NCBI GenBank assembly: GCA_016098155.1
Contig: JAAAJB010000070.1
Span: 1 to 64,000, forward strand
Direction of reading: 5' to 3'
Source: Actinomortierella ambigua
Taxonomy: Eukaryota; Mortierellomycota; Mortierellomycetes; Mortierellales; Mortierellaceae
DNA: 64,000 bases
The notes under the pieces were generated by a model. That model was not told the origin of the DNA, made no database searches, and saw only the letters and a list, made by a program, of their open reading frames with translations. The first letter of the stretch is position 1, and each line of letters opens with the position of its first letter. Made by a program: the position numbers and the translations under genes. Below, one piece after another: positions 480 to 23,228 of this stretch.

Positions 480-645
480 TTTATTGTCGTTTTCATCTTT
501 TTTTACTGCTCGAAATTGTTATTCAGGGATTAGTTTTTGCTAATTAGGGCTAATTAGATCATATGGGAGGCGGTCCTAATAGGAGCTCAAAGCGCGATTT
601 ACTTGCTCCAAATAAGATAAAAATGTGTGAAAAGGACAATATATC

Positions 646-1370
646 CATTAGTTGAGTAGACGATGGCTGTGGTGGGCGTTCTATGCATCGGATGAATGGC
701 ATTCTTACCTGGGTTGCTCGGTGACATCCCTTCTACATAACTTTGACGCGATTTTTGAGCTGCCACCGCTTGTAAATCTCGAGCGGCTTCATTGGATGTG
801 ATTTCAGAGCTGACCTGTAGCCTTCTCCGAGACCAAAAGATATCGGCATGGTTTGCCTGAAAAGCCATAAACGCCGCTTGCAGCCTCTCTCGTCTGCGCG
901 ACCGAATTTCATCCGAGCCAATGAGTACCGTGTAGGTCTCCATGGCCATCTGCCTGTTGTTTAAACCGAACTCCTTGACAAAGTTCTCGAGTGATACGTG
1001 TTCAACACCCGGGACCTTGTTCCGCACCCAACGCAAATGCTCTGGCAGAAACATATATTTGAATAGAGGTAGCGCAAAATTAACTTCGCGAAATGTGTAG
1101 CATGCCGCCAACGACACTATGATCACTCCTCCGTTCGGCAGAGCCCAGAGGTGCATCTGCTAGAACAAAAGAAGCGGGGCCGCATATGACGCAGTGTTAC
1201 AGTCCAGACAGGGTCGTGATCATAGAGTAGTTACCTTCTCCATCCTTGTTTGATTGTACGGAAATGGACACCTAATTTCGCAGATCAGCACAGCACAAGG
1301 GGGTGGGGTCAAACGAGCAGTGAATGGAGCGAGGATATGCAGAGCGAGAGGAATAACAATGAGTTCTGAA
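646..1370 (-). pseudogene. MSLP-header family copy A, 5' fragment
   Basis: Exon 1 is intact (complement 709..1054, 346 bp, exactly the length of exon 1 in the full copy at 8291). It encodes about 115 residues starting MFLPEHLRWVRNKVPGVEHV, closely similar to the 8.3-kb copy. The donor after CAACCCAG is conserved, and intron homology continues to about 646, where it ends abruptly. No exon 2 equivalent is found in the remaining 645 bases, so the gene is cut off. At the start the acceptor seen upstream of the 8.3-kb start (AAATAG-ATG) reads AAATAT-ATG here. Upstream homology to 7970..8290 extends to about 1370, so promoter and leader were copied too. The function of the header module is unknown. 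Confidence 0.75.
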
Positions 1371-1895
1371 TTAGTGAAGGGTTATGGAGGTGGAATAAAA
1401 GATGTGAGGTGACAATTAATCGGAGAAGAGGCGCAGCCTCCCGTAAACATCATGTGGTACGCTCAATATGGCAATTGTCAAATGAAATAGGCCTGTCCCC
1501 TGCGCATGGAAATCACTGCACATGAATGAATCACTCGCGATAGGTAATGGCAGTCCTGGGTAATGGGGCTCTGCCAGTCGATTCTGGAGTCGATCGCTGC
1601 TACGTCTGGGGTACAGGCTCAAGGGCTCTGTATCATTTTGTTTCATACAGCCATGGACGTATTTCAGCGGACCTGAAGGGCGTAGTCAGTGAGATACGAG
1701 ATCTGGCGAAGCCAAAACTTTGAAAAATCGCTGCTAACACAGCGTGGTGTGGTGGAGGCATTGTGGGCAATACGCTTTCCCTTTGATCAGCTGATGTCAC
1801 TTACGCCAGCGGAACCTATGGCTTACACAGGCAAGATCAAGACTTTGAGAGGTCTGAAGTGGAAGTGAGAGGAGTGTGTGAGAGGAGTGTGTGAG

Positions 1896-1925
1896 TGAGG
1901 AGAGAGAGAGAGAGAGAGAGAGAGA
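1896..1925. repeat. (GA)n microsatellite
   Basis: An uninterrupted GA dinucleotide run, preceded by a short GTGTGAGAGGA duplication. Confidence 0.9.
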
Positions 1926-3660
1926 CCATATTTACAAGCTATACATAGGAGATTGCTTCGTAGCTTGATTAATGAATCACGAGGTTTCATAGTCATCCCG
2001 CATGCCCCTGCGAAATTTATACTATGATAATGCAGGGCGACGATGACAGCCTGAGATGAACGCACAGCCGAGCCAACTTTGTGTTTCCCTCCTTCCCTTA
2101 CCCCACTCACCCCCCTCCCCAAGAAGACCACTCTACATATCAATGCGCCTTTTGTCTGGCAACGCAGCTTTTGCTATCCTCGCTCGCAACCAGTCGTACA
2201 CTACCTCACCTGACGGCAACCATGTTAGATCACTTTTGCCTCGCACGGTGCACTGAAAATGGTACTCTTTACCTTTACAAGACAGACCTGGTCAAAGTAC
2301 GCATCTCCGCCCTGTTTCCCTGACAAGCACCCTTCTTCCATCATCACATGCCCTCCCCTTCACCCAAGGAGATGAATATAATCTTATCCGCGCTTTTTAT
2401 TGCGGCTGACTTTCGTTGCTCCATTGCTGAAGAATGTCTCATGTCCCAATACATTCATTGATCTCGGCCGTAGGCACGCTTTGGTCGAGGCTCTGTAGGC
2501 ACCCTGTTTGAGGCTTCTGTCCCCAAGGGTGCCTATTTACCAATGGAAAACACACACGCAGGTTAGATGCCTTACATCCAGTCACTAGAAGTGGGCACAG
2601 TTCTCTCCAAGACTCCAAGGCGGATTCTCCCTCAAGTTGCCACTCCAGCTTTGAAGGCTGCCGTCAAAGAGCTCACCCAATCCATCAGCGAGTGCCCATG
2701 CAGCTGCATCCCATCAGGATAGTCTATATCGCGCTCTGTTGTAGTACCTTGAGCTCGTACCACCTGATTTGATTGTGAAGATCTGCACCTGGTATCAAGA
2801 TATCCAATCATGAAGACGACAGGAGCAAAGGAGCAAGCTATTGGCGATATGGTAAACATTAGCTGGTGGAGTCGATGTTGCCTCGGTCTCAATCAACCAA
2901 CTTGGCGCGCATGTTGTCGATTGCCTGGATGATGGTGGCAAGGTGTGGCTAGACAACCCTGTCCCTGCTAAGAACTGCTTTTCACCTTCTGCATTCGGCG
3001 CTTTCGACTTGCCATCTCCATGATTTTAGGCCTTCGTAAACATCTAGGCAGACGGCCTTTTTGTCTGGGTGGAGTTGATTTTTGAACACAATGTATACCA
3101 TCATACAATGGTCGGTTTGTGAATGCAGCTATCCCCGACAGGGAGGGACGGAGACATCTTGAGGGAAATCTTTGCGGCTGGCTGAGTCGCAAGCTCGATT
3201 CATATCCACGAAAAAACGACAACAATGTGTGGTTCAACGAGTTCCACATCATGGGAGCTGCTTGGATATTCGGCTTCGCCGCGTTGTCACTAATACGGTT
3301 CTAGGTCCATAAGCCTTCAAGAAATTGGAGCGAATATGCAGGGCAACATAGGGGAGCTATGTCATGGTTGGCCAGCAGAATACTTGTTCGCGAGGTGCAT
3401 CACTCAGCACAAGCTTAATGTCGCCGCCAGGGACACGCTTTCAGCATTTTATGACGTCACCGAACGAATCCCAGCGGCTCGACCGTGGTGCCTTTTCTTG
3501 CTTCAAGGCGTCTTGTCTGCCTGTGGTTGAGGCTCGTTTGTGTCTATGAACCAATGTGTTTCTGTCAGACGTTCAGCCTTGGGATATCTTGCTGTTGGAA
3601 GACTCATGTGTCTACTCCACTTCCTTTTGCTTCTGCATCCAAGAGTAAGTCTTATATGCT

Positions 3661-3728
3661 GCTACAGACTGGAGATACAGCTGCCACTGTTGGTGCTACA
3701 GGCTGGAGATGCAGTGGCAACTGTTAGT
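3661..3728 (+). repeat. 34-bp tandem duplication
   Basis: Two adjacent 34-bp units, 3661..3694 and 3695..3728, both starting GCTACAG-CTGGAGAT and differing at about six positions. There is no gene context. Confidence 0.8.
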
Positions 3729-4496
3729 GCTCCTGGTGACCAAGGAAAGCGTTGCAGATGTTGCGAGTAGCCATTACATCTCGATGAAGATACTTGTGGC
3801 AGTGCAAGCGACGGATACTCCTGGTTTGGGACATAAAGTTCATAATTACACATTGGTTACTTCTTGCTGGTGTAGACAGCATCAACATTATAGCCCAGGG
3901 ATCGCGCCTATGGTTGATGAAAGTCATTACGCGTTAGCATGCGAATGTGGAGTAAGTGCAGCATATACCAAAGCCCACAGCAAACTCTTATCATTTGGAC
4001 GAAAAAAGAAGACTGAAATCCTTTGTAGATGAAAGCTTGCCTTACCCCATTCCAATGATCACCTTGTTTGTCTCCTTCCTCCGAATACCGACACTTCCAT
4101 CCACTATCCTGAGAAGGCTGTCGGTCATCTGCCCGTTCTCCTTCTGCTTTGCTCGCTAGTAGAATCATCTAAACTTTTTGAAACGGTTTACATTATTGTA
4201 GAAATTGTCCAGCTGCTACAGGTGTTTGTGGAGATATTGCTTGTACTTCTCGTAATCGACAGCATTATGTCCATACAATGGAGGAAAGGAAGTCTTGATA
4301 TCTCTGACGCTCGTACTCAACCGTGGCGACTCTTGACTAATTAGTTGCAGTGGTCCTGACGCTGCTGTCTCTTGCTCGTCCATCCCAAGAGCATGTTGAT
4401 TTACTGGCGGTCTCACCTCTTACTTTCGTTCCATCCAACGCAAGAACTTCAAAGTAAGTTTGTAACATAGGCTCTAATAACCCCTCTCATACGTGT

Positions 4497-6084
4497 ATGA
4501 TACAATCGTTGAGAGGGTGGGTATTAGAACCCATTTTCTCACGAGCCAGCAGACCTTCTCAGGACACACTCTTGAGATTTAAAGTGAACATTGTCTATCG
4601 AGCTGATACCTTGAACATCATTCTTGACACCTTCCTAGAGCCTTGCCGGCTCATGTGGCGAACGATGATCGTAAAAGGTCAAGTCCTCGCGAGCTTGCAC
4701 ACTTCTCATGCGAAGACAGTTGAGACACCCTCCCACATCCGCAGGCTAGCCACAAGGAATGAATCTTTCATACAACCACCAAACAAATCGCCTCATGTTT
4801 TCACTTTTCCTTTATCATTGCCCAAGGGGAATGCTTCTCAGGATCCGATGGCTGTTTTTGATGCTGCTTCTGTCCAAAAAATGCGTGATGACACCGAACA
4901 CAATCTTCCTGACATCAATGAGCGTGAGACACTTCTCTTTTAAGTTCATGCTTTCGGTCACCTGGGTCATCATTCTATGGTGCAAGAGCTCTTTGAGCGT
5001 GATATCAAATGGGCTAACATGCAGAAGGATTATCATAATTTTGTCAAAGGCTGTATTACCTGTCAAAGAGTGAACATTACCAAGAAAGGATACCGCCTCA
5101 TGCGCGTCATCCATGCTTCTCTTCCTGATGAGCATATCGCCAGGTATTCGGTGGTGGGTCTGGAGCCTTCCAATGATCATGATGTGCACATTCTTATCAT
5201 GGTTGATGTGTGCACTCGTTTTGTGTTTCTCTTTGCTCTCTCAAGGACAAAACTGCTGCTGGTGTCGCCAAGTGTCTCTATACTCTTTTGGTCTTATTGG
5301 TTTCCCAAAGATCATTCAAAGTGACAATGGTGGCGAGTTCTCCAACAAGCTCCTACAGGACGTCTTGTACGCCTAGCGGATTGAGCACCATCTTTGCGCA
5401 CTTTATCATCCTCGCTCTAATGTTGTTGCTGAACGCTCTGTCCAGAATGTCAAGAACATGCTGAGAAAAATGGTTCAAGAGAATTACTGAATGGCATCAG
5501 CACTTGCCATGGTTCAGTTGCAGATTAATTCCCGAGTGGCTAGCCTGCATGAATCTTCCCCATTCTCGCTGTTCTTTGGTCGTCCTTTCTATCATCCCGC
5601 TGATCACAGTGGTGTCAAAAGTCTGCCATTAGAGGACAAAGATGTGGAGAAGCGCACGCAATACCCGATGAAGCTAGTTTACCCTGCAATCTCTAGCAAG
5701 GGTAAGGCGAAGCAAGAACAAGGTTGAATAGGTCTCATAAGCTTGTGGACTTCTCTGTTGGTGCCATGGTTCTGGCCAGAGATGAACGCAGAGATGGAAC
5801 CGCTGCTCTCGAGTTTGAGGGTTCTTTCAAGGATGGCAGCTAAGCTTCTGGTGGTTTCTACACGTTGCTTGATGGCACTAGTGAACCACTCACTCGCCGA
5901 TATGCTCCGTCGCAAGTCAAGCTGTTCTCTGGGCACACCTCTTTCTGATGGTGACGCTGAGGCTGATTCGTCCATTACACAAGGGACTACGTTTGAGTCT
6001 TATGAGATAGAGGCCATTCTTGATCATGACACTGACCCAGATTATCCGCATCTATTTTATTACTTTGTGAGCTGGAAGGACTAG
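4497..6084 (+). pseudogene. Decayed Ty3-type chromovirus pol (RNase H tail, integrase, chromodomain)
   Basis: The segment keeps the order expected of the 3' part of a Ty3-type LTR retrotransposon of the chromovirus group. A degraded RNase H tail lies near 4510-4640. It is followed by an integrase H2C2 zinc motif (H-x3-H near 4955, CITC near 5050), the integrase core (VDVCTRF near 5195, QSDNGGEF near 5318, and a Glu 36 residues after that Asp, a D-x35-E spacing), and a C-terminal part reading YTLLD and YAPSQVKLFSG in another frame. A chromodomain end (YEIEAILDH to YFVSWK) lies near 6000-6080. Frames change several times and stop codons fall inside the core, for example near 5375 and 5488, so it is dead. 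Reverse transcriptase, gag and LTRs are not visible in the window. Confidence 0.85.
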
Positions 6085-6352
6085 TGATCTGTGTTGGCTC
6101 TTAATGAGCTGGTCGTGTCCATCATGGCTCTAATGGTCGGACTTCAAGCGGTATCGAGGGAGAGGGAGAGGGAGCGAGGGAAAAAAAAGCAGAGGCGAGG
6201 GTCATTTATGATATCTGCGTCCTTGTGTCCTCACCTTTGGGGCATAAGGTTGCGTCTGTTAATGAAACACAAGGTTGTGCATTTTACAGCGTTGGAGCCA
6301 TAATCTTTAAAATGCGCAAACTTGTACACTCAAAACGGCCACAATACCTCGA

Positions 6353-6640
6353 TTGGTCCTCAAGCGCAAGATGTGGAGAAAAAGTTGCGACGAGGCTACG
6401 ATTTGGCCCCACAAGGTGGCGGAACAGGGCGACTCCACCGTGCAGTATAGTCTCGCGTCAATGTACTACCATGACCGGGGAGCCGACCAGAGCAATACGG
6501 ACGCCATCTGGTGGTACCAAAAGGTGGCAGTCTAGGGAGAGGCACAAGTACAGAGATCGTGTTGGATCGATGTACGAGGCTTACCGAGGAGCTAAGAAGG
6601 ATTCACGACCGCTCTACGGTGGTCCATGAAGGCGGCGATA
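6353..6640 (+). pseudogene. Sel1-like repeat protein fragment
   Basis: The frame reads KVAEQGDSTVQYSLASMYYH and then an ADQSNTDAIWWYQKVAV segment. These have the spacing and key residues of Sel1-like repeats (A-x-QG-x-A/x-YLGxMY and A-x-x-WY-KAA). An in-frame TAG follows, after which GEAQVQ, a frame change and WSMKAAI continue the repeat pattern to a stop at 6640. It is a remnant of two to three repeats. Sel1 repeat proteins, often fused to kinases, are expanded in Mortierellomycota and Glomeromycotina, but no kinase part is seen here. Confidence 0.6.
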
Positions 6641-7969
6641 TAAGAGTGATATATTAGCATCAGAAACTGTTCACTCTTGCTGTTGTGTACTGTGTACCTC
6701 ATGCTCAGTCAACATAGACCCTGAAGAAGGCCGCTATGGCGAAAAGGAGGAGAGGGCAGAGGAGAACTGAGACACATGGAGAGCACGTCCATAAGTGAGA
6801 AAAACATCACACTGGCAGCCACTAGCAGACATAGATGTACTGCGTCGCCTTGTGTTTTCTTGCAAGTCTTTAAACTCTCTTCCATTCTGCCACTCCTCTT
6901 CGCTTTCCTCTCATTTGCCTGTTGACCTGTTCATCTTTGAATTCCATTCCGCACGCCTCTCCCAAGCTTAATTCAGGTAAAGTTAACTCCGAACAAGCGC
7001 GTCGGTGGTCTTGGTGCTAGGTGGAGTGTACATGGCCTAAATGGGCTCTTGTCATTCTGCGTTGGTGTTGGGAGAAGCGGAATGAGAAGAATGCATCTTT
7101 CATTCTGGTTGATGGACAAACAAGTGGCGCCGTTCGTTGGGAGTGATTGCAACGGCCAGCACTCATTCCCTTCAGGGGTGACACGTGAGAAAGTAGACAC
7201 TGCAGCTTTGCTTATCTATTATTGCGCGTTGTGTGTGCTTCTACTGCAGCTGCTCAGAGATGGGTCTTTGTGGTGATGCTACAAATGGCGTTCACAACGG
7301 TCGTGCCGTTGGAGGTGGACTGATGATCCTTCCTCTGCGAGCTACTGATGCATAACTGACTGATTGACTGGCAATGTTCATGAGGGGATCGATGAGGCGA
7401 AGAAGCTGGCCGTCAGATGGGCGCGCTTGGAAATTGTGTCTTTACACACCTTCTCTCTCCATCCACCATCCTTTCGCTCTTCCTCATCATCATTTCTTCC
7501 TTCCCATCTTCCCTGGGCGCATGAGCTGACGGTCGGTGGCTGCCCAGGAATCTGATGTCAAATAATCCACCCCCTGACAATTTTGCCACTTCTCCTTCTC
7601 CCACGCCCTCCACCCGTCCTTCACAAAATAAACACGCGCACGCCAGCCGACAACAGTGCAGTACGCAAACCAAGAACACTCCTCTCTTCTCCTCCACCAT
7701 GGCACACACCCTAACCCCATGCTACACCTTCTGCTCTAGCGCTCCTGCTGGTGCTATGTCACTCTTCCCAACTGTCCTTTTTCACCCACGTCTGTCATCG
7801 AGTTTTCTTTGCTTGTTTTGAAGATGCTAGTCAGTTTAAGAGCACAGGGTCTGGGAGTGGTTGATGGGAGATGGTTGCAGTGGTAAACCGACTTTTTTTC
7901 CTAAAACCAGAATCTTCCATGCTTCCTTTCTACTCGCACCACCCCTCTCGTCCGTTTGCCACTCTTTCT
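6641..7969. other. Unassigned accessory DNA
   Basis: No coding sequence, RNA or repeat could be supported. The short frames on both strands lack recognisable motifs. Confidence 0.4.
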
Positions 7970-8290
7970 TGCGATTAATTGTCTCTTAATCCACCTCCTC
8001 TGAACATCTTTGCTCCATGCACTGCTCGTTTGACCCCACCCCCTTGTGCTGTGCCGAATCTGCAAAATTAGGTGTCCATTTCCGTACAATCAAACCAGGA
8101 TGAAGAGGGTAACTACTCTATGATGAACACGACCCTGTCTGGACTGTAACACTGCGTCATATGTATCCCCGCTTGTTTTATTCCAGCAGATGCACCTCTG
8201 GGCTCTGCCGAACGGAGGAGTGATCAGAGTGTCGTTGGCGGCATGCTACACCTTCCTGAAGTTAATTTTGCGCTACCTCTATTCAAATAG
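7970..8290 (+). promoter_or_regulatory. Duplicated 5' leader/promoter of MSLP-header gene B
   Basis: This region is the inverted homologue of about 1055..1370, upstream of copy A. Both contain the block from CCCCACCCCCTTGTGCTGTG through GGTGTCCATTTCCGTACAATC to GTCTGGACTGTAACACTGCG. The start at 8291 directly follows AAATAG, so the ATG may begin an exon after a leader intron; the mutated AAATAT in copy A fits this. No TATA box is obvious. Confidence 0.5.
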
Positions 8291-10623
8291 ATGTCTCTGC
8301 CAGAGCATTTGCGTTGGGTGCAGAACAAGGTTCCGGGTGTTGAACACGTGTCGCTGGAGGACTTTGTCAATGAGTTCAATCTGAACGACATGCAGATGGC
8401 AACGGAGATGTACAGGGCACTCATTGACTCGAATGAGATACGGGCGCCAAGGCGAGAGAAGCTGAAGGAGGCTTTTCGGGTTTTTCAGGCAAATAATGCC
8501 GATGTCTTTTGGTCTCAGAGAAAGCTACAGATCAGCTCTGAAATCACATCCAATGATGCTGCTAAAGATTTGCAAGTGGCAGCAGTTGAAAAGTCGCGCC
8601 AAGGATATGCAAAAGTATTGTTACAGAGCAACCCAGGTAAGCATGCCATTCATCCGATGCACAAAACGTCGACCATAGCCATCCTTTACTCAATTAATGG
8701 ATATACGTGCAATTCATAATGTAGTTAAAACTTTGTGCGTAAGCAGCCGTAACCAATATTTACTGACTGAACATCATCCTAACCTGTGTTGATGGATAGT
8801 CGTTAGCGCTGCCAGCGGAGTCCCGCCTACGGGAAGCTCATCGTCGAAACGTAACAACCGCAGAAAAAAAGCTATCACTCTCATGGATGAGCCATGGAAA
8901 GGGTTGACCAAGAACCTGCACCAATTGGTAATGCCAGACTGAAATGCTGTGTTGCCTCTTTAGCCACCATCCTTCGTGTATAAAAAAAATACTAACACTT
9001 GTGAGCAACGTCTAGATCAATGACCAGCCAGTCAACCAATTTGCCACCATCACCCCCAACATGCCCCATCTTCACGAACAACTCTTTCACCACACCGTTC
9101 ATCTGCTGAGCGAGTATAAGGAGCAAGAGCCGGCCAACAAGGACGAAAGCTTGGTGAAAGAAGCTCAGTAAGTAACCTACCTCGTGGTGTGATCATATTA
9201 TCTTTCTTGAGTGTGTTGCCACTGGGTTCGGCTCACTAATTTTTTATCGCCTCTTATGCATTATCTACTTGATTTTGTAGAGTGGCAATGTCCTGCGTCC
9301 TTGATACGATGTCTTCTCGCACCGTTCAGTATTTCGCCAGCAATGGCGACAATGATGTCATCACACGGGCTGTGAGTCGTACCGCCATCTCGACCTTCGA
9401 GCAGCACGCCAGCCTCGCCATTTTGCCACAATATCTGCAGGTCTTCAGGATTACGATGTTCGGTATCGGGCTCGGCAGCTCCTTCGAGATCGACATGAGT
9501 TGCAGAAGCCGTACGATCTTGGCGAGATACTGCCCGAGGAGGTCCAGATGAAGGAAAGAGTGCTCGTGATCCTGGAATATCTGTGAGTATCTCAACGTGA
9601 AATCTACTTTGTGCGTGTTTCCGTGGGTCGTTTTTCTTCACACATTTAATAATATCTAACTCTCATTCGAGTCATCTAGTTGCCGAGTGGTCAGCAACCC
9701 GCCCTTCAAGAGAGAAGATGCATCGGAAAACGACGCCCTTTTAGTCTGGGCTCATGTCCTTGATCTCGCGCGCAGCAACGACCGCATCGCGCTACAAAGT
9801 GGAGAGCGGATGCTGGAGACATCGAAGGTCCTGCGACAGCAGCAAGCAGCAGAGTTTTGCGACATAAGTGATGCAGGACGCACAGTCGACCTAGCCTTTG
9901 TCCACAAGGACATCGAGCTTTCAAACATCGGGTTCAAGAGGCCTGGAATCAGCACAATGGACATCAACGTCCAGTGCAGGAAGAACATCCGACTTGGCCG
10001 ATGTATTCAGGAGCAGCATCGGAAGTATGGTGTGCAGGAGCCGTCGGTGATCATGGGAGACGTGGCCGGTATGTGTTGAGGAATTTTGCCCTGAGCCATG
10101 AAAAAAGTAAGTGCTTCCTAAATCACTAATACTTTCTCTTTTTTTCCTGAATCGTCATAGGCTTCGTTGGAATATTTTATCAGCTGACGAAGATGGACGA
10201 GGTGTGGGTTGCTGGAACAACATCGCCCTCGAAAGTTCATCTTCCAACAACCCACGGAGAGTACGAGGTGTTTCTCGAGTCGACATCCCTCGCGCAAATA
10301 TTGAATTTCATGGTAAGTAAGCATTCTAGTACCAAACAAGGTCGAGGCAAAAAAAAAACACAAAATAAGTGCTTACTTACTGTCTTCCGTTATTCTGATA
10401 GGAGCACCTTGAAAAGGAGGGACCAAGGATCAAGCGGAAGCAGGAGCGGTACAATAGAGCAATAGATCTTGGATCCTTTGGGGAAGCAGTGGCCAGTGCT
10501 CAACCGACCACACCGCCGCCGAAACGCAAGGCGTTTGATGAAAATGTGACGTTTTCACCAAAGCGGAAACATACTGTGCATCGGTCTCCTTCCCCCTGCC
10601 CTCCTCTTCCTCTCGCACAATAA
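8291..10623 (+). CDS. MSLP-header protein with nuclease-like C-terminal domain (copy B)
   Basis: The exon model is 8291..8636, 8800..8927, 9016..9167, 9281..9371, 9449..9582, 9680..10068, 10161..10312 and 10402..10623. All introns are GT-AG with matching phases, giving 537 aa. Alternatively 9372..9448 is coding (it reads SRTAISTFEQHASLAILPQ) and a base is missing near 9440, giving about 563 aa. The first 80 residues are the header shared with the other copies. The middle is helical. Near 9870-9940 the motif RTVDLAFV, then ELSNIGFKRP, has the D...x-x-K layout of a PD-(D/E)XK nuclease core, but the residue two before the Lys is Gly where Glu would be expected. A conserved-looking block (GDVAGFVGIFYQ, WVAGTT) follows. 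The C-terminus has two basic, nuclear-signal-like clusters (PPPKRKAF and SPKRKH). This is the only complete long copy; function is inferred from motifs only. Confidence 0.7.
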
Positions 10624-11269
10624 ATCTTGGAATACCATGCTATCATATTAATACCATCGGCGCGCACCAGTCGTATGCTCTGCAAACATGGCCACCCGCT
10701 GCTGCGATAGTAGAGATCGAGTCTATCTAGCCACGAGAAGAGGGTGGGCCTGGCGACCTAGAAATGAACCATAAGTACACAGCTGAATGGAGATGCAATA
10801 ATACACAGAGAAGGGATTTCCAAACCTCGTTAAATTCGGTAGTTAAGGCTCTGCAGATGCGCGCAAGGGGATAGGATTTTGACGTGGCTGGGTGTAGATC
10901 GGTGTGTGCGTGGATAGGGGGTTGTGTGTGCAGGATACTGCTGCGTGAAGTGAAATCTCTCAAGGGAAAACGCACAGCGCTAAGACAACAAAAGCACTCG
11001 AACCAAGGATCATACACAAGGAACACTGCTCCGGGCGTGAGGGCACAACGAGTCTGGTATATATATTGTCGTATCTGGAGAGGTGTGTGTATCTGCCCAC
11101 CTGCGCAGGTTCCGAGTGCACGACAAGAGACGTCTGGACCACCACGACTTCAGGAGCACACGGCGAACATCTCAGAATGTCAGTCAAAAAAGAAGGATGC
11201 ATAGTAGTCTTCTCAATGTGCATCTGTTATATGAACGAACAATGCCACACATGCCGCAACCAACGAGCT
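10624..11269. other. Unassigned spacer
   Basis: 3' flank of the 8.3-kb gene. No gene supported; short frames without recognisable motifs. Confidence 0.4.
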
Positions 11270-12870: not shown

Positions 12871-12922
12871 TATACACATTTTAGTGTGAAGCTCACTAGT
12901 GTGCGCACACTAAAATGTATAT
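12871..12922 (-). repeat. 52-bp palindromic repeat P, copy 1
   Basis: The arms ACATTTTAGTGTG and CACACTAAAATGT enclose AAGCTCACTAGTGTGCG. The reverse complement is nearly identical to 17867..17918, so the two copies are inverted about 5 kb apart and bracket three MSLP-header copies. Here the repeat joins directly to the start of the duplicated block at 12923; the matching block at 16141 lacks it. Confidence 0.8.
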
Positions 12923-13708
12923 CCACTTCATTTTTTTTTTTTAAAAAAAAAAAAGGACCTCAACTCGTGCAGATTGACCACTTAACGTACATCATCGGGT
13001 GTGGCCCGTACATCATCTGGCGTGGCCGGGCGGTAAGAGCGAGCTATGAATAAAACGTAAAACGGGGTCAGAAAATAGGCTATCTCAAACTGCCCAAGCT
13101 TATCATTTGAGAAATACTTACGTGAGTTGCCTAAGAGTCTCTGGCCTGCTGGTGGCAATTGCTGCATTAGCACCTGAGTTACGAGGGGTATGAACACTAT
13201 TCTGACAAGCGACGTGAATATGAAGTCGACCTACCTGCACCAAATGTAGAGGACACTGATTGCAATGATGCTGATGATGTCTCCAATCCTGCAACTTTCA
13301 ACGTGGAAGAATCGAAGTGCAGTGTGCAATGAGGCCCATGGAGAATAGATGCGTTAATGACGTGCGTTAACAATGTGCAAACCAGATATGATTGTGTCGA
13401 GAATTCGTGGCGAATGAAAAATGAAATGCCATGAGAGTCAGCTTCTCACCTATGGTTGATTCGTCTAAAATATACAAGAACAAAAGAGGAGTGAGATACG
13501 AGATGACATGGCACGAGACGATTGTCAGAGATAGGGCATTAAAGAGGAGAGCACTAACCTGTACCATGACGAATATCGTCGAGTACCTGGCGTCTTCTTG
13601 CGATGATCTTGGCAAAGGCAATCTCGGACTCCATTGCCGCAGCCATGCTGGCTTGGAGTCCCGCACGCGTGGCATACATCTGGAGACTGACCTCAAGCGT
13701 ACGTTGGA
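12923..13708 (-). pseudogene. MSLP-header family copy F, 3' exons only
   Basis: The block is a near-identical direct duplicate of about 16141..16945, which holds the 3' end of intact copy D. The exons corresponding to D are complement 13559..13708 (partial), 13450..13464 (15-nt exon), 13235..13288, 13122..13196 and 12982..13043, with all splice sites kept. The protein end has two ATPDDVR units and a TAA stop, against three units in D. The header exon is cut at about 13708 within the part encoding LQMYATRAGLQASM, so there is no start codon and no header. Confidence 0.75.
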
Positions 13709-13762
13709 CCTAAGAGTTCCAAAAGTACGGAGTTTTTGGTTAATTTTGAAGCTATTGGAGAG

Positions 13763-13947
13763 GGACAAAGGATGTAGTTTTGTTCAGGGCTGGAGGAGCG
13801 TCGCTCTCGTAGCTCACTTATTAGGCTCCAAAGGCGGAGGAGATGGGGGATGACGATGAGCTGATCGAGGCTGATGCTCCAAGAGAGGCTGATGCTCCTA
13901 GAGATACTGATGATGCTCCACAAAGAGCAACAATGCTCCAGAAAAGA
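13763..13947 (+). repeat. Duplicated module M, copy 1 (ADAPRE-coding)
   Basis: This is a near-identical direct copy of about 23229..23437. It contains TTATTAGGCTCCAAAGGCGG and then repeated GATGCTCC units. In both places it lies next to a broken MSLP-header copy. Here its frame (MGDDDELIEADAPREADAPR) runs open into the Crinkler-like segment; at 23.4 kb the same frame stops soon after. Confidence 0.75.
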
Positions 13948-14406
13948 GCGATGCTCCAAGCAAAGAGGCAAAGTTTCCTCTTGGAAACAACGATTTTGCC
14001 TTCGAGTATTTTTTTTTCCATGCTCCACGACATGACTACCAACTATAACCTCTTCTGTCTTGTTGATGGTGACTCCACTTCCAAGGCATTCACTGTCGAC
14101 ATCAAGTCAACCAAGACAATCGTCGATCACTCAAAGACATTATGCGAAGAATCTCACTTTCTCGGCCAGCAAGCATCGGCCCGTTCTCCTGAGAGATATT
14201 GCGTCACCAGAGCTCGACCCACCGACGACAATGCTAATGTCTTTGAAGAAAACTCCCACATCATTGTCCAACGTCCCCCTTCCCAAGGTAATGAGACATC
14301 TTGGCTCCCTGTTGCATGTGTTTACGCTCCAGTACCTTTGTGTCTAGGAAACAACTCCTTCCATATTGTCCGTGATCTCTCCTTAAACCCCAAAACTTCA
14401 GCCTGA
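13843..14406 (+). pseudogene. Crinkler-like N-terminal header fragment fused to an acidic repeat leader
   Basis: The open frame of 187 codons starts with the module-M peptide. From Met at 14032 it reads MTTNYNLFCLVDGDSTSKAF and continues TVDIKSTKTI, which resembles the ubiquitin-like header found in fungal Crinkler (CRN) proteins. Further on, HIIVQRPPSQ just before a GTAATG donor at 14288 also fits the end of such headers. Between them the family-like segment (VLLRDIASPELDPPTT) lies in a different frame, so at least two frameshifts separate the parts. No C-terminal effector domain follows. CRN headers are known in oomycetes and in Mortierella/Rhizophagus, where C-termini vary. I read this as a dead fragment. 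Confidence 0.6.
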
Positions 14407-14787
14407 GGCATTCTGCCAGCATGAATAGGATGGCAGCTGCGACTCTATATTTTTTCCTACCCCACACAAGCTTGGCTAGCAAACACCCTTCTCTTGTACA
14501 CATCCCCTCCCCTACACAACACACGCACACGCACACGCACACGCACACGCACACGTATATCTGTGCGCCCAACCATCCACACATAAAAGTAGTTTTCACT
14601 CACAACACTTACAACCAACAGATCCTGATAATACACATTGCTGTAGTTTGATTGCAGGTGGCATCTAAGCCATGTCGGATTTTTACTTGAAGCAGGGAGA
14701 AATGGGGGGAGAAAGCGGTAAGGATGTTGGATCCTGGCAAAGATAAGCAGAGAGATGGTGAAGAGGTAGAGACAAATACAGAAGAAG

Positions 14788-14835
<48 letters not shown>

Positions 14836-14899
14836 GTGTGCACTTTGGTTCCTGATATGGTGGAAAGTTAAGAAATAAAAAAAATGGAAGGAGAGGGAG
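14407..14899. other. Spacer with two microsatellites
   Basis: It contains a (CACACG)n run at 14521..14556 and a (GA)n run at 14790..14832. No gene supported. Confidence 0.6.
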
Positions 14900-15740
14900 G
14901 GCTTGCATGTAAACGAGAAGCGAGGTATATCATTTTCGTTTACTCACACTCTTGGCTTGGTCCTTCTTGGTGGATACTTGTCATGGAATGCGATGGTAGC
15001 CATCCATCCCCTCAACCTACCTAGCCTACCCGGCCTACCCCTTGCCCACCATCGCACATAGACTCGAAACCAGTCCAAGCATTCGTTGTGCAAAACACGA
15101 TGAATATTTCACCATGTTTTGCACAACGAATTTTGGACTGGGTTCGAGTCTACATCGCACAACCTTGCTCGCCTTCATGAGAACTAGGAAGATATTATCA
15201 AACATCTACCTGATACTATCACACACTTGTACGTCTCTTCCTTACATAAACACCCAAAGCACGACACTGCCCCACCATCCTCGCACCCCACCCTTTCACC
15301 CAGCCACCTGGCCTGCTGTGGCCATCCACAAGCGGAGACCCAATATATTGTACGTACACTCGAAGATATCTCCTTCAGCAGCTCTGAAAGATATACTTCG
15401 GCGTCTGCCGAGTTCGTGCCATTGGCTTGTCCCCCCCCCCCTTTTCATTTCCAGACATGTCGCTGCCCAAGGAGTACCCGCAATGGGTCCAAAGAGCCGA
15501 TGGCGAGGAGCACGTCTCCTTCGAAGCGTTTTTCGAGAGATTCAACTACAACGACCAGGCATCCGCCACAGAGGATTACCTCCAGTTGCTGGAGAGCGAC
15601 GAAATTCGTCGCAAGAGACGGGATGCCCTGAAGGCATCATTCAAGCGCTTTCAGCGAAACCACGAACAACAGTTCCGGGCACAACGTGCGCTTGGAGTCC
15701 TGCACGTGTGGCATACATCTGGAGACTGACTTCAAGAACT
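14900..15740 (+). pseudogene. MSLP-header family copy C, 5' fragment joined to inverted sequence
   Basis: The upstream region and header are an inverted duplicate of copy D (matching about 18090 down to 16990). The start is ATG at 15457, and the frame (MSLPKEYPQWVQRADGEEHV and onward) stays open through FQRNHEQQFRAQR. Near 15690 the sequence switches to the antisense of the same gene: CTTGGAGTCCTGCACGTGTG matches the complement strand of copy F near 13650. The gene is therefore broken by an inversion junction inside exon 1. Its leader carries a 94-bp palindromic insertion (15059..15152). Confidence 0.7.
15059..15152 (+). mobile_element. 94-bp palindromic MITE with 9-bp target duplication
   Basis: The insertion begins TAGACTCGAAACCAGTCCAA and ends with the near-perfect complement. 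The arms, about 40 bp each, include TTGTGCAAAACA/TGTTTTGCACAA. It is flanked by CATCGCACA at 15050..15058 and again at 15153..15161. The homologous leader of copy D (about 17925-17940, inverted) has one uninterrupted CCATCGCACAACC, so it is the empty site. A 9-bp duplication with long inverted repeats fits Mutator-like (MULE) families. No coding capacity. Confidence 0.85.
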
Positions 15741-16140
15741 GTCAATTCTTTAACACTCACTGGGACTCGTTGGTTCTGTTGCACTCACCTTCTTTTCAGA
15801 CAGTGCCAACAAGACTTCGCGCCTCATTTTGTCGGTAACGAATCCGAAAAAAATGAGCAATTGTCTTGTGTTGGGAAAGCTGTTCTCCCTCTCTCCTCTC
15901 TCTCTCTCTCTCTCTCACACACATGGTATTCTCTTTAAGATTTGAAGAAACGTATTGAAGCATCGAGCAAAATTTAATGCTGCAAGTTATGGCTACAGGC
16001 GAAGGGGGGTGGTGTTAGAGGGTGGGGAGGTGCTCCGGCGGAGTGACAGAGACTCGATCAATATCTCGCGGGTCGTCCCTCTAAATTTGGCCGAGCGCAA
16101 AGTTAAGATTCCAAACCGAAATTTTTAGTGAAATCGACAG
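15741..16140. other. Spacer with CT microsatellite
   Basis: It has a CT run around 15892..15918 and no supported gene. Confidence 0.5.
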
Positions 16141-16202
16141 TATATCCACTTCATTTTTTTTTTTTTAAAAAAAAAGGACCTCAACTCGTGCAGATTGACC
16201 AC

Positions 16203-17173
16203 CTATCGTACATCATCGGGTGTGGCCCGTACATCATCGAACGTGGCCCGTACATCATCGGGCGTGGCGGGGCGAGAGGAGCGAGCTATGAATAAAACGT
16301 AAAACGGGGTCAGAAAATAGGCTATCTCAAACTGCCCAAGCTTATCATTTGAGAAATACTTACGTGAGTTGCCTAAGAGTCTCTGGCCTGCTGGTGGCAA
16401 TTGCTGCATTAGCACCTGAGTTACGAGGGGTATGAACACTATTCTGACAAGCGACGTGAATATGAAGTCGACCTACCTGCACCAAATGTAGAGGACACTG
16501 ATTGCAATGATGCTGATGATGTCTCCAATCCTGCAACTTTCAACGTGGAAGAATCGAAGTGCAGTGTGCAATGAGGCCCATGGAGAATAGATGCGTTAAT
16601 GACGTGCGTTAACAATGTGCAAACCAGATATGATTGTGTCGAGGATTCGTGGCGAATGAGAAATGAAATGCCATGAGAGTGAGCTTCTCACCTGTGGTGG
16701 AGTCGTCTAAAATATACAAGAACAAAAGACGAGTGAGATACGAGATGACATGGCACGAGACGATTGTCAGAGATAGGGCATTAAAGAAGAGAACACTAAC
16801 CTGTACCACGACGAATATCGTCGAGCTCCTGGCGTCTTCTTGCGATGAGCTGGGCAAAGGCAATCTCGGACTCGATTGCCTCAACCATGCTGGCTTGGAA
16901 TTTTGCACGCGTGGCGTACATCTTCTGACTGGTCTCAAGCTCACGTTGCTGCCAGAACTGCCTCTCGTGGTTTCGTTGAAATCGCGTAAATGATGCCTTC
17001 AACGCATCCCGTCTCTTGCGACGAATTTCGTCGCTCTCCAGCAACTGGAGGTAATCCTCTGTGGCGGATGCCTGGTCGTTGTAATTAAATCTCTCGACAA
17101 ACGCTTCGAAAGAGACGTGATCCTCGCTACCGGCTCTTTGGACCCATTTCAGGTACTCCTTAGGCAGCGACAT
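16203..17173 (-). CDS. MSLP-header short protein, 199 aa (copy D, intact)
   Basis: The exons are complement 16801..17173, 16692..16706, 16477..16530, 16364..16438 and 16203..16285. All introns are GT-AG and every junction is in phase 1, giving an uninterrupted 200-codon frame including the stop. The second exon is only 15 nt. Residues 1-80 are the header (MSLPKEYLKWVQ, then HVSFEAFVERFNYND and SDEIRRKRRDALKASF); a charged helical stretch to residue 124 ends RRRQELDDIRRGT. The tail is Ser/Thr-rich and ends in three ATPDDVR-type units. Unlike the 8.3-kb copy there is no nuclease-like domain. No signal peptide or membrane segment. The start is supported by conservation of the MSLP start in three other copies. 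Function unknown. Confidence 0.65.
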
Positions 17174-17458
17174 CTGGAAATGAAGGGGGGGGGAGACAAG
17201 ACAAAGGCACGAACTCGGCAGAGACCGAAGTATATCTTTCAGAGCTGCTGAAGGAGATATCTTCGAGAGTGTACGTACAATATATTGGGTCTCAGCCTGT
17301 GGATGGTCACAGCAGGCCAGGTGGCAGGGTGAAAGGGTGTCGGCGGGGTGTGGGTGGGGTGCGAGGATGGTGGGGCAGTGTCGTGCTTTAGGTGTTTGTG
17401 TAAGGAAGATGTAAGAGTGTGATAGTATCAGGTAGTATGATGGAACTCGAGAAAGAAG

Positions 17459-17918
17459 GAACTCGAGAAAGAGTGAACATACACCCAATAAAAAGTCACT
17501 CAGACAAGAGTGCTGGCTTGGGCACTGGTTGATGCTGCGGTGACTGAGCAGGCTGTCTCCGATACCAGGCCTCGCTAACAAAGTAACCCGCCATCTCCTT
17601 GCGCAGATTGTTTTGGCTAACCCTTTGGGACCTTCGTCTACCCATCCCGTCATACAACATTATCCGGTCTTTGATTACTACTGAACACCGGAAATTAACA
17701 CCGTTGCTATAAATCAAGGCCATTAGTTGGAGCGGGGTCCACTTTAGCGTTTCTGACAGCCCTCAGAAGCGCACTACAGAGCGTGACTAAATGCACCTCT
17801 GCGTCGCTCATGGGGGGATATCGCCTATAGGAGAATGATATTTTATACGTGCCTTTGTTTACTGTGACATACATTTTAGCGTGCGCACACTGGTGAGCTT
17901 CACGCTAAAATGTGCATA
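17459..17918 (-). mobile_element. Insertion in the leader of copy D carrying a Ulp1-like ORF remnant
   Basis: Copy C has a short leader where copy D has about 460 extra bases, so this is an insertion in D or a replacement. Its outer end is palindrome P copy 2. On the minus strand a 75-codon frame (17496..17723) contains VVIKDRIMLYDGMGRRRSQR. This faintly resembles the strand before the catalytic Asp of Ulp1/C48 proteases carried by some large fungal transposons. The frame preceding it is open but shifted by one base. The protease match is weak, and the left boundary is approximate. Confidence 0.35.
17867..17918 (+). repeat. 52-bp palindromic repeat P, copy 2
   Basis: The arms ACATTTTAGCGTG (17871..17883) and CACGCTAAAATGT (17901..17913) are exact complements. 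It is the inverted counterpart of 12871..12922, with compensating A/G changes in the arms that keep the palindrome. Confidence 0.8.
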
Positions 17919-18087
17919 CGCGAGCAAGGTTGTGCGATGGTGGGCAAGGGGTAGGCAGCTTAGGTTGAGGGGATGGATGGATACCAACGCATTCCATGAC
18001 AGGTATCCCTCAACGGAAGGGGACGTAGTAAGAAGAAGGAAAACTCGGTACTCCTCGCTTCCTATTTACATGCCAGCCCCCCCCCCT

Positions 18088-18150
18088 CTCTTTCCTCACT
18101 CTCACTCTCACTCTCTTTCACTCTCACTCTCTCTCACTCTCTCTCTTTCC
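18088..18150. repeat. (CT)n / CACTCT microsatellite
   Basis: Pyrimidine tract of CT and CACTCT units between the leader homology of copy D and repeat R1 copy 2. Confidence 0.85.
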
Positions 18151-18154
18151 GTCT

Positions 18155-18634
18155 CTTCACCATAAGCACACCCTCGATCGAGAGAGATAAAAACTATCCC
18201 GCAGCCGTTGCTGTCCCAATCCTCGCCAGTAGAAGGATCACTTCTGGCGTCCTCCTCGCTATCCTCAGCATCGTGGACGGCACTTCGGTGCGAGAGCGTA
18301 TGACCCACAGTGATGGCCGATCATTGGGGTGCCTAACGCCGTCTTTGCTTTCATTGTCGATGGTGTTGTTCTCAATATTATCTAGTGACGAAAAGAACAC
18401 TCGCGTGAGTGATGCTGAGGCTGGAAAGAGACATGCACTTTCCTTGCATCTGATGGATAAACTGTCCTTCCTGTAACACCCTCGCTCTCCCACCTTCCAT
18501 CTATCTCGGCAAGCTTCGGCATATCGAGGGTGCTTCCATCAGTCTTGGTAGCAAGCCTGAATGTAAGGGTCGTCACTTAAACAATACCAAAAAAAAGTGA
18601 GAAGATCGCCATTCAGATTTTCGATGCATCCACA
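18155..18634 (+). repeat. 480-bp dispersed direct repeat R1, copy 2
   Basis: Near-identical to 1..479. The 67-codon frame is kept at 18273..18476. Both copies sit beside an MSLP-header copy, but on opposite sides of it relative to gene direction. Confidence 0.85.
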
Positions 18635-19636
18635 GTTAGTTCTATGCATCCCTATCTTTGCCTTCAATTTTTGACGATCAACTGAATGTGATGCAAAGGT
18701 AAAAAGTTAAACAGTACAGAGCACCACCCACAAGGAGATTATTTTGCCACGCTTTTTTACCCTTCAATTGGCTAACATTGTGGTCGATGGTAGAGTAGAG
18801 GCAACAAACACTTGCCGCCATTGTCTAATAAATTATATTAGTCGGAGGCTTCGAAAAAGGATTGGCCTTGTATAGATGTTCGTGGAATGGTTCGTGCTGC
18901 CGTACCCTCCGTTTGGGTTTGCTCCAAGGAGAGAAAAAAAATAGAGAGAACGGACAATAAAAAGACGAATGCAGGGGTTGCATCCGAAGAGAAAGAGAGA
19001 AAAGAGATTGAGTGGCAGAGAGGAAGAGTCTGAGGCAAAGATCCTTGCCAGTGCTGTCCTGTCTCTTCCACGTTTTGCACTGCCCGAAGAATTCCTGCCA
19101 CTGTCAAAGGCAAGAAGCGAAAAAAGAAGAGAGAGTACCATGAATGTCACAAAACAAGGGAAAGAGAGAAAGAGAGAAACGAGCAACTAAAAAGAGCGCA
19201 CCCTCATTGACATATCAAAGAACGTGTGAGGAGGCAATGGCATGAGTAGAGCTGTTCTGAGGACGGTAGAGACTGACGAACTGCTGGTCACGCAGACAAC
19301 ATATGTATTTAGGCTTGGGAGGGAAAATATAATATTTTGGGTGAGCATTCTTGCGTGCAATGTGTTAAGAAGGGCTGATACGGATGGCGGAGACGATCAG
19401 GATGGGAGAGGAAGGCACAGGCTGATAGACTGCTGGCCACACAAGCCGATATTTCAAAAGAGGATGACAATGAAAAAAGGCGAATACAGAAACAATGGCG
19501 GTACAATCAGTAGTGTCTATTATTTTTTTGTGGGATATCCGAGGTGACGCTTGTCCTGAGCACTAGGTCGTGGAAGGAAAATAGAGTAGACTTTGGCTAA
19601 AATGTTGTCAATGCATGGCGTTGTTCAAAGGCGGCA
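18635..19636. other. Unassigned spacer
   Basis: No gene supported on either strand; purine-rich short frames only. Confidence 0.4.
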
Positions 19637-20770
19637 TCAGTCTACTCGGAAGGCCGAGACGAAGGTTTTGCCTTGTAGGTTATTCAACTTACATTGATCA
19701 GGGACAGCTGGCTCCGGGTTGGATCGCGGACCGGGCGGAGCGGAAGTACTGGGGCCGGGCATAGCGGAAGTACTGGGGCCTGACGTTGACTGGAGGCCCT
19801 TGTCAACTTTTTTTTCGAGGCGGGTCATCTGATCCCTCGCACGTCCCTTCTGATCCTTCGCACGCCCCTTCCGATCCTTCGCACGCCCCTTCTGATCCTT
19901 CGCACGCCTCTTCTGATCCTTCGCACGCCTCTTCTGATCCCTCGCACGCCTCTTCTGACGGAGCTCCTGTTCGCGTTCTTGATCCCGCAATCGACTCACA
20001 TACTCTTCATATCGACGCGTCAATTCACCATGGGATTCCAGACTTTGTTGTATTCGACGACTGAGATCTTCCATCTGGCCTTCCAATAAATGTATGCGCT
20101 GCAACACCATATCCGAGGAGTATCCAGCTGCGCTCGGCAGATCTGGAACGACAGTATTGTTGGGATGATAGGCGTTGGGAGCGTAGGGGGCGTTGGTGTT
20201 GGGAGCATAGGTGTAAACGTTCACCAAATCCCTATCACCCTCTTCGTCGTCTACCACCACGTTCACCAAATCCTTATCGTCCTCTTCGTCGTCTACCTCC
20301 ATGTTCACCAAACCCTTATCGTCCTCTTCGTCGTCCACCTCCATGTTCACCAAATCCTTATCGTCCTCTTCGTGTTCAACCCCCAGATTCACCAAATCCT
20401 CATCACCCTCTTCGTCGTCTACCCCCTCCAGCTCATCTTGAGGGTCTCCCGCAGGTTGCTGCTCAGGGCCGACGATCGACACGAAGTCCGCGACCTGAAC
20501 AGTAAAATCGAACGACGGGCATGGGTGGTGTTGCTGTATCGTGGAACGCGATAGCGGTTCTCTCCCGCAGATGCACTGAAAGCGCATCCCGTTCGCCGGA
20601 TTTCTTGTGTGAACGAACGTGAAGCCGTGGACGACGACCTTGACAGGTGTCTCGGAATGCATTCGCAAGAGGTGATCTTTTTCAACCTTGTCCAGCGCCT
20701 GACCTCGAGCCTTCTTGTCGAGGAGACCTTTCTTGCACACGGAATATGAGCAGAATGCTTTGGGTGCCAT
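19637..20770 (-). CDS. Hypothetical protein with acidic and basic tandem repeats, 377 aa
   Basis: This is a single exon. The start chosen is ATG at 20770 (MAPKAFCSYSVCKKGL); the frame continues upstream, but that part is low-complexity leader. The N-terminal 110 residues hold paired Cys/His (CSYSVCKKG, RFQCICG, HHPCPSF), suggesting a small metal-binding domain. Next come five acidic units of about 14 residues (VDDEEDDKDLVNME type), a Pro/Asn linker, a predicted helix (MVLQRIHLLEGQMEDLSRRI), and then about six basic seven-residue units (RAKDQKG type, 21-bp period near 19825-19960). The tail is Ser/Pro-rich. No homologue is recognised. Repeat number is probably polymorphic. It resembles fungal DNA- or chromatin-interacting accessory proteins only in composition. 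Confidence 0.6.
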   Translation of the reverse strand: MAPKAFCSYSVCKKGLLDKKARGQALDKVEKDHLLRMHSETPVKVVVHGFTFVHTRNPANGMRFQCICGREPLSRSTIQQHHPCPSFDFTVQVADFVSIVGPEQQPAGDPQDELEGVDDEEGDEDLVNLGVEHEEDDKDLVNMEVDDEEDDKGLVNMEVDDEEDDKDLVNVVVDDEEGDRDLVNVYTYAPNTNAPYAPNAYHPNNTVVPDLPSAAGYSSDMVLQRIHLLEGQMEDLSRRIQQSLESHGELTRRYEEYVSRLRDQEREQELRQKRRARDQKRRAKDQKRRAKDQKGRAKDRKGRAKDQKGRARDQMTRLEKKVDKGLQSTSGPSTSAMPGPSTSAPPGPRSNPEPAVPDQCKLNNLQGKTFVSAFRVD

Positions 20771-21649
20771 GTTCCGAGAAAAAAAAAGATGTGAAAGTGG
20801 TTGAAAAAAAATTGTGTTGAAAAAAAAAGTTGTGAGTGTTGAAGAAAGTTTTTGGATGTCAGAATTGGTGCCTCTGTTTCTTCCCGTGCTCGATACCTCT
20901 GTATATCTACCCGCTATCTCCTTTTCTCCCGTGCTCCTTTTCAATGCTCCTTTCCAAGCTGCATCTCCAGATCATTTGATTTCTTTTTTTTTGTGGGCCA
21001 CAAAAGATGCCTTCAAACCTTGGCGCATACCGACAATTTGCCCATTGTACTACCTGCTACGGGAGGAAGATGACTCAAAGCTAAAAGTCCCCTCGTGCAT
21101 GTCTTTCCGATCCCTCTTGCCATTCCTCTTTCAGGAGCTAAACGAGAAAGCGAGCAGCTAAACAAAGGAGCGAGAGGAGCTGGGAGAAAAACGGTAGACA
21201 GAGCTGTAGAAGGGGTACGGGAACTCTTGAGCCTCGGATAACGGCTGTACATCCAGGAAAAGAAGGTAGTCTTTCCTCGTTGTTTGCATGAAGCCTCTTC
21301 ACATATTCATATCGTTTTTGATATGGCGTTTGGTATCTGCCAGCCCTTTATAATGACTACTAGCACACTCCGTACATAGCAAGCATGATATCTTGGCATG
21401 CACAACACGAGGAAGCTTTGACCATCATTGTTGCACGGTCCCCACCTTTTCAGTGACTCGCCAACAGCTGAAGGCAAATAGCCATTGTTTAAACTGTCTG
21501 TTTTCTCCTCTCTCACCTATTCTTCCACACTTTTTTTTCTAACTCTCTTACTTACACTCTCTCCCCCTCATTCTCTCGCCCTCTCTTCCACTATCCTCTC
21601 ACACTCATTTTCACTCGCTCATTTTCACTCTCTTCCTCTCTCTCCCCCT
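20771..21649. other. Unassigned spacer
   Basis: Upstream of the minus-strand repeat protein. Contains poly-A/T tracts close to its start codon and a CT-rich tract at about 21500-21655. No gene supported. Confidence 0.4.
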
Positions 21650-22291
21650 CATCCTAGGACTTGCAGGGAGGCCTTTAACCACTGCGGCAGCGTATCGTCT
21701 CTCTGGGAACGTGGCCATTAACACCATCTGCCCGAACAATAAACTCAGTGAGGCCGTGGACGAGGACATTTCTGCTGGCCACAGACGTACAAGCTTCTGA
21801 CGATCACCATCCACATAGACTCTTTTATCACTCGCAGGGTAAGTATGGCAATCATTGCATACCACAAAGCTAATTGTTACAAACACTTTATGTGTGTAAT
21901 ATCCTGTAGAAGCATCTCCAGCAACACCTTCGGTCGTATCCTCAGTCGAATCCACGGCGACAGGCGGCGCCAGCGCACAAGACACTGACCCACCATCAGG
22001 TACTTTTGACTAATCTGTGCATTGTTAGCATCAATGAATTTATTAGCTATCAAAATCAGGCTGTCTTGATCAGAATTGTGATATGACTTTGAGCGCATAC
22101 TTTAATGACTATCTAATACCTACGGAAATTTACTTGTTCGAATTTTAGGCCCCAACTCTTATATTGTCCGCGCACACGCGTCTCCTTTTTACGAGCTAGT
22201 GGACCATATCTTCAAAAAGGTACAGGCGGCCTATCCAACCAACTGCAGTGTAACTCCTATCTCTCAATCCCTCAGTGCTAATATTGAGTAA
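21650..22291 (+). pseudogene. Possible decayed multi-exon gene
   Basis: After AG acceptors, protein-like pieces appear on the plus strand: LAGRPLTTAAAYRLSGNVAI (about 21660), VEASPATPSVVSSVESTATG (about 21906) and PNSYIVRAHASPFYELVDHI followed by FKKVQAAYP (about 22150), ending at TGA/TAA-type stops. I cannot join them into one clean frame. No family is assigned. Confidence 0.3.
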
Positions 22292-23215
22292 ATCAACATA
22301 GGCGCAAGGCCTTGACCCTCCAGGACTTGTCAACAAAGACTCTGATCGTCAAGTCCACTTTTCTGGGGTTCGTACAGGTTGCTGTCTTGTGGCCAAACAC
22401 ACTCTCAGTCAAGTTGCGAGACTCTCGCGATGCCATACTGCCTAGTTCGCCGCTGTGCAAGTAAATAAAGCAGAGGTTTAGTTTTTTAATAACAAGATTC
22501 CAAAAACTAAACAATCAAAACATCCACGTACAGCATACCACGTAGCCCAGACTGAGCAAAGAGTGTGTTGAATATGTCGCTCCATGCGCTGACAAACACA
22601 TGCTCGGATAAGGGTGCTGCAAATACATCATTTTCCAGCCAATGCAGGACTTGAGAGACGATCTTGAGCACCAAGTACTTTTCTTTTACTACTCGTGTAT
22701 GATGCAGACCAGTACACTACGAGAGTGATACATGAACAAATCTCTGGAGAGATTCGATTGACATAACTGAGGGGTCATCAGTGTCTGGATATAGTGCTGC
22801 TTGTAATTCGGCGCGGAGCTCATCAACGGCCTTGGATGTATATGATAAACATGGCATACGAGACTTTTCCGTCACGAGTGGCGAGATAGTGAACTGTTGC
22901 CCGATAGGTGAAAGGGTGTTGATGACACCACTGACCAATGTTCTACGTGTAAAATTGAAAAGTTAATAGCTGCTTCAAGTAAATATATTTGTTGTGCTCA
23001 AAGGGAATGGGTAGACAGCACTTACAAGACATCTTTTTTTCCTAACAATCTCGTCAGGCTCTTGCAGGAGTTGAAGGGACATACGGAACATTTCACTATG
23101 CGTTGGGGACAGATCTGGTGGCACGGCAGGCAGTGGACAAACGCTTCGAAGGAAACGTGTTCCTAGTCGCCATCGGCTCTTTGAAGCCATTGCGGGTACT
23201 CCTTGGGCAGCGACA
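22292..23215 (-). pseudogene. MSLP-header copy E fused to exons of another gene
   Basis: The start reads MSLPKEYPQWLQRADGD, then an in-frame TAG, then EHVSFEAFV. Near 23137 homology to copy D ends. From there a different exon reads DLSPTHSEMFRMSLQLLQEP up to a GTAAGT donor. Later minus-strand exons read RTLVSGVINTLSPIGQQFTI, EKYLVLKIVSQVLHWLENDV and GELGSMASRESRNLTESVFG, ending with RKVDLTIRVFVDKSW before a stop at about 22291. The last part has the same layout (GE, AS, then K/TVDL) as the nuclease-like part of the 8.3-kb gene, so it may be a distant relative of that domain. The stop codon and the junction make this copy non-functional as an MSLP-header gene. Confidence 0.55.
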
Positions 23216-23228
23216 TCTGGAAATGAAG

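Follow-up and report, generated by a model that had tools for sequence, protein, structure and literature searches.

Does one N-terminal module stand in front of different tails in Actinomortierella ambigua, or are such combinations the debris of a single gene? This question is raised by the first 64,000 bases (hereafter the window) of the 87,034-bp contig C664 of its assembly (33.8 Mb, 846 contigs), in which a sequence-only reading had pointed to several copies of one protein header attached to different 3' ends. Searching the genome with the header of locus D resulted in 13 places at E<=0.001, seven of them on other contigs (C250, C182, C135, C604, C418, C341, C778) and six on C664, and with E-values of 7.9e-77 (D), 1.2e-38 (C), 8.9e-19 (B), 3.9e-17 (A), 5.1e-15 (a headless copy) and 4.6e-4 (E) the matches in the window are not due to chance. 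A second query revealed weak extra places on C66, C2 and C296, and a local header profile (10 sequences; 20 stretches examined) placed the same loci above threshold except E. All six copies or remnants listed earlier were thus found, though the motifs vary (VEHVSLE in A and B, EEHVSFE in C, EDHVSFE in D, and SNEIRAPRR as the form of SDEIR-RR in B) and E comprises only 27 aa of the header. As judged from sequence comparison, header swapping appears to hold across the Mortierellaceae, with a Crinkler-like architecture on a header that is not that of Crinklers.

Gene B is the only complete model in the window. Its eight exons with GT-AG borders encode 537 aa in the order header, Ser-rich basic linker and PD-(D/E)XK-like tail, and the corresponding database protein of A. 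ambigua (DFQ27_008384, here P0001; 99% identity over 77% of our model) is a 421-aa model that lacks the two final exons. The tail had been called nuclease-like, which is supported by its motif and by weak matches, e.g., to HsdR (HsdR/EcoT38I among the VIA rows). In 19 aligned relatives, the motif revealed D in all 17 ungapped rows, E in 17 of 19 and K in 19 of 19, with the E of ExK replaced by G in P0001/B and by A in P0008. Since this E is lost, B may be inactive as an enzyme, its reading frame being kept. The structure model of the B-type tail displays strands at the motif (mean pLDDT 55.8) and gave no Foldseek match at E<=0.001.

Protein relatives were obtained with the full spliced B protein and a region of P0021 as queries; a 142-aa piece used as a protein query had no matches, which probably reflects a comparison limited to proteins of similar length. 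The header was present in seven of the 26 proteins returned, including that of B, and was seen with differing tails in B/P0001 and the locus on C182 (A. ambigua), P0019 (Modicella), P0021 (A. wolfii), P0022 (M. claussenii) and P0026 (Lobosporangium). Three tail groups, mutually unalignable by hhalign, sit on headers that are 61-78% identical, and two more on more distant headers. C182, from the same genome as B, splices cleanly and encodes 504 aa; its header shares 37.5% identity with that of B, and its tail ('ev') is a different one. In both genes, a Ser-rich linker connects header and tail. P0021 and P0022 share the tail 'me', a combination conserved across genera (76-77% for header and for tail), P0026 harbors the tail 't26' (header 50-56% identical to the others), and P0025 the short tail 't25'. 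This wider comparison argues against decay as the sole source of the combinations.

Among the tails, that of P0019 is distantly related to that of B (BLASTP E 1.7e-11; hhalign 98%, E 2.1e-13). All other pairs of tail groups stayed at hhalign probabilities of <=4%, the highest being 'ev' and 'me' (E 0.01), and a single family of B-type and 'ev' tails is unsupported by hhalign. A weak match of the P0025 tail was found at L030:1298-1092 (E 0.0034). Other N-termini stand in front of B-type tails in the models P0008, P0011, P0012 and P0016, and C267 seems, by eye, to carry an 'ev' tail behind another N-terminal exon. In the same genome, C315 is a decayed relative of C182, and the header on C418 contains stops and is followed by the same 'ev' exons as in C182 until the contig breaks off. 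None of the tails matched a curated family above cut-off; by eye, the tail groups share D-x13 or x17-E-x-[K/T/S], which suggests that the tails of the header groups are putative PD-(D/E)XK-type nucleases. On C701, a header-less copy of the B tail (95% identical, E kept; truncated on the 5' side and again where the contig ends) lies on the plus strand beside a 'me'-group tail (L042:3260-4263, minus strand).

The point of exchange is sharply defined. Mean pairwise identity among B, P0019, P0021, P0022, P0025 and P0026, with gaps counted as differences, ranged from 0.45 to 0.84 per ten-residue block up to residue 110 and fell to <=0.11 in each of the next five blocks, so that similarity collapses at the end of B exon 1 (codon 115 plus one base). 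The first exons of B, C182 and D have lengths of 346, 376 and 373 bases, respectively, each leaving one base over, i.e., phase 1, and a phase-1 intron after a constant first exon suits exon shuffling.

The header itself, about 110 residues encoded by this one exon in B, C182 and D, is predicted to be all helix. Its identity with a known domain was rejected, as searches against Pfam (closest DUF3323 with the C182 header exon, E 0.0028, 18 bits vs 26.6), PDB sequences by profile (no match at E<=1) and Foldseek (no match at E<=0.001) were all empty at their cut-offs. No description of it was found in the open-access literature searched, a scope outside which the header list of Zhang et al. 2016 lies. 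At the start of seven headers, no signal-peptide-like hydrophobic run was detected by Kyte-Doolittle averaging (maximum ten-residue mean 1.08), no dedicated predictor being used.

Table 1. Positions of header copies, exons and remnants in the window
Feature	Position	Strand	Evidence
A: copy of B upstream region plus exon 1 (709-1054) plus 69 bases from the start of intron 1, splice donor included	640..1344	-	self-comparison
B exon 1: header, residues 1-115 plus one base; phase-1 intron after it	8291..8636	+	genome search, splicing
B exon 2: Ser-rich basic linker and tail start	8800..8927	+	splicing model
B exon 3: tail	9016..9167	+	splicing model, tail matches
B exon 4	9281..9371	+	splicing model, tail matches; P0001 junction slightly different
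B exon 5	9449..9582	+	splicing model, tail matches
B exon 6: PD-(D/E)XK-like core VDLAF...ELSNIGFK; E of ExK reads G	9680..10068	+	alignment
B exon 7	10161..10312	+	splicing model, tail matches
B exon 8: stop, basic C-terminus	10402..10623	+	splicing model, tail matches
Headless copy of D 16140-16948 (92%)	12917..13706	coding -	self-comparison
C: copy of D upstream region and exon 1 up to residue 79	15206..15694	+	self-comparison
C end: stretch matching headless copy 13651-13697 at 93.6%, antisense to C	15690..15736	+	alignment
D linker exons 2-4 (16706-16692, 16530-16477, 16415-16364), Ser/Thr/Ala-rich	16364..16706	-	GT-AG splicing
D exon 1: header, phase-1 end	16801..17173	-	genome search, splicing
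Open pieces surrounding E and below it (23271-22978, 22716-22510, 22514-22296)	22296..23271	-	weak collinear similarity to B/P0019-type tails
E: 27-aa header start and leader, one stop inside	23133..23232	-	genome search, self-comparison

Locus A (header at 710-1054) duplicates the 5' end of B at the DNA level; it corresponds to B 7998-8705 in inverted orientation (86%) and is cut within intron 1. Since A lies at the left contig end and is read outward, the assembly may lack its true 3' end. Its upstream DNA is 92.7% identical to that of B and its exon 1 81.8%, with the step about 50-90 bases into the exon; dN/dS of exon 1 was 0.46 over 115 codons, a point estimate without significance test. 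Beyond the A header, window positions 1-483 recur as a direct repeat (96.5% identical) upstream of D (18155-18638), and between A and B (4977-6084) we found degenerate pieces of a Ty3-type retroelement, with Integrase_H2C2 over cut-off and weak rve and chromodomain matches.

The second cluster centres on D. No tail was found after its linker exons, and D stops there: the 199-aa repeat-tail protein proposed earlier was not confirmed, as GT-AG splicing leads into the last exon (16285-16203) in a frame with only ten codons before a stop, a frame other than that of the repeat. Nor is the end of D supported as a dispersed repeat, 16130-16345 matching only itself and the headless copy in a search that skips very common words. 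Locus C (header at 15457-15694) corresponds to D 16936-17435 in inverted orientation (87%), and the inverted sequence reported earlier is indeed present at its end, the 47-base stretch being closer to the headless copy than to D (76.6%). The breakpoints in D nearly coincide, C ending at 16936 and the headless copy beginning at 16948; judging from these coordinates, the simplest reading would be that C and the headless copy once formed a single D paralogue, which an inversion-type event divided. For exon 1 of C and D, dN/dS was 0.22 over 79 codons, again a point estimate without significance test. Over about 300 bases, the headless copy (13047-13346) does not differ from D (about 16289-16588; 60/60 in five successive blocks), whereas similarity is lower on either side, a pattern that may reflect gene conversion. 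The block of headless copy, C and D is flanked by TAGTGTGCGCACACTA (12897) and TAGCGTGCGCACACT (17877) in palindrome-like surroundings.

At E, the header start itself spans 23133-23216 (minus strand), and 23136-23232 represents about 97 bases of D and C. The foreign exons described there resolved into three separate open pieces with weak collinear matches to known tails, the best among the 26 proteins searched being P0019 (E 0.0027), P0007 (0.015) and P0014 (0.056), in the correct order. The headless copy and E share a 169-base upstream stretch in the same orientation (13780-13948 and 23268-23436, respectively; 93% identity). Farther off, positions 19637-20770 (minus strand) contain a 377-aa open frame with a Cys-rich start and internal repeats, without a Pfam match over cut-off.

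Taken together, we lean towards modular nuclease effectors that probably act inside cells and form a family made by header swapping. The header would deliver or regulate the nuclease tails, and basic stretches would send the proteins to the nucleus. New genes would then arise when upstream region, exon 1 and splice donor are duplicated as a cassette beside other tail exons. Cassettes of upstream region plus exon 1 seem to arise in this window, because A and C have such a shape, A being complete with its donor and C similar with the exon end lost; that they found new genes is our inference. A separate system confined to the Mortierellaceae, independent of and beside Crinklers, in which a cassette of promoter, exon 1 and phase-1 donor captures nuclease tails by one-step exon shuffling, is conceivable, with chances that we put somewhat below even. 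What weighs against swapping is the window itself: most of its combinations represent duplicates or truncated versions of two genes, and taken alone they are the decay products that the sequence-only reading had named as speaking against such a family. Its claim of one header on different tails therefore stands on C182 and on related headers across the Mortierellaceae, and falls for most of the window. If no swapping took place at all, duplicated, truncated and mis-predicted copies of a single header-nuclease family would feign the combinations. This describes most window copies (A, C, the headless copy, D and E) and fits five loci at which no known tail was found (C250, C135, C604, C341 and C778; 9.0-9.9 kb each), but B and C182 splice cleanly with tails unalignable by hhalign, and P0021 and P0022 keep a third combination between genera, so that we consider it improbable.

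It is also rather unlikely, though not far-fetched, that the proteins act within the fungus, in self/non-self recognition or in warding off endobacteria, viruses or mobile elements, the header being a sensor or adaptor; header swapping would then serve internal immunity instead of export. Such a role is in line with the missing signal-peptide-like starts and with PMC6307997, according to which Mortierella species host Burkholderiaceae-related endobacteria, and PMC9815663, according to which the N-terminal domains of fungal NLR proteins vary, a helical one being shared with Mycoavidus. On the other hand, spliced B and C182 revealed no NTPase or NLR module at E<=1, and since Crinkler-type proteins also lack signal peptides, according to a re-analysis cited by PMC5289972, this lack does not separate export from internal action. 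That the header belongs to a transposable element, with the nuclease tails as by-products, would agree with the integrase region between A and B and with local repeats flanking header copies. We regard it as very improbable, as the 33.8-Mb assembly contains few copies (13 matches), A/B and C/D arose by local duplication within a single contig, and self-comparison revealed no terminal repeats on either side of the headers, element ends not having been searched for specifically.

True Crinklers are present as well: as a positive control, PF20147 gave 27 matches on 25 contigs of the A. ambigua genome. It was not among the matches of the header proteins, in agreement with the earlier statement that the header is a different one, and a differently headed system thus seems to run beside Crinklers in the same genome. 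Header-family tails on Crinkler headers were looked for at five of the 27 places (about 0.8-1.5 kb of flank), and none of the tail groups was found. One frame downstream of a Crinkler match displayed weak AAA matches below cut-off. Another (L061:162-1295, minus strand), also downstream of a Crinkler header, reads VDFAVVDRVHQNQVLGVTEVK, nuclease-like by eye, with no Pfam match at E<=0.1. On both C118 and C379 a Crinkler match is accompanied by a 'me' tail match, but their order is not that of a single gene. For early-diverging fungi, in which such proteins are now 'hypothetical', the family provides a further header to search with. Since the exchange point coincides with a fixed-phase intron and the window contains duplicates of the header together with its upstream region, the birth of effector-like genes might be followed at the DNA level in a soil fungus.

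Compared with known systems, the tails resemble the PD-(D/E)XK superfamily in D-x13-E-x-K (B-type and 'me') and in the weak HsdR similarity, and differ in E-x-T ('ev'), E-x-S ('t26') and the G for E in B. Bacterial polymorphic toxins, as described in PMC3482391, likewise join varied toxin tails by recombination, whereas in the Mortierellaceae proteins no secretion marker was found and exchange appears to take place at an intron. The closest parallel in architecture, as the earlier reading had rightly suggested, is formed by the Crinkler/CR effectors of oomycetes, Rhizophagus and other fungi, for which PMC5289972 describes an N-terminal header with C-terminal domains of several kinds, often from the restriction-endonuclease superfamily, unrelated alpha-helical N-termini besides the Ubl one, and recombination at a protein motif at the header end. 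Both systems place one header on several types of C-terminal domain and use the header end as exchange point. The Mortierellaceae header differs in being without PF20147/Ubl, all helix in the model and, by eye, devoid of an LxLFLAK motif, and it ends at an intron, whereas that of Crinklers ends at the HVLVxxP motif.
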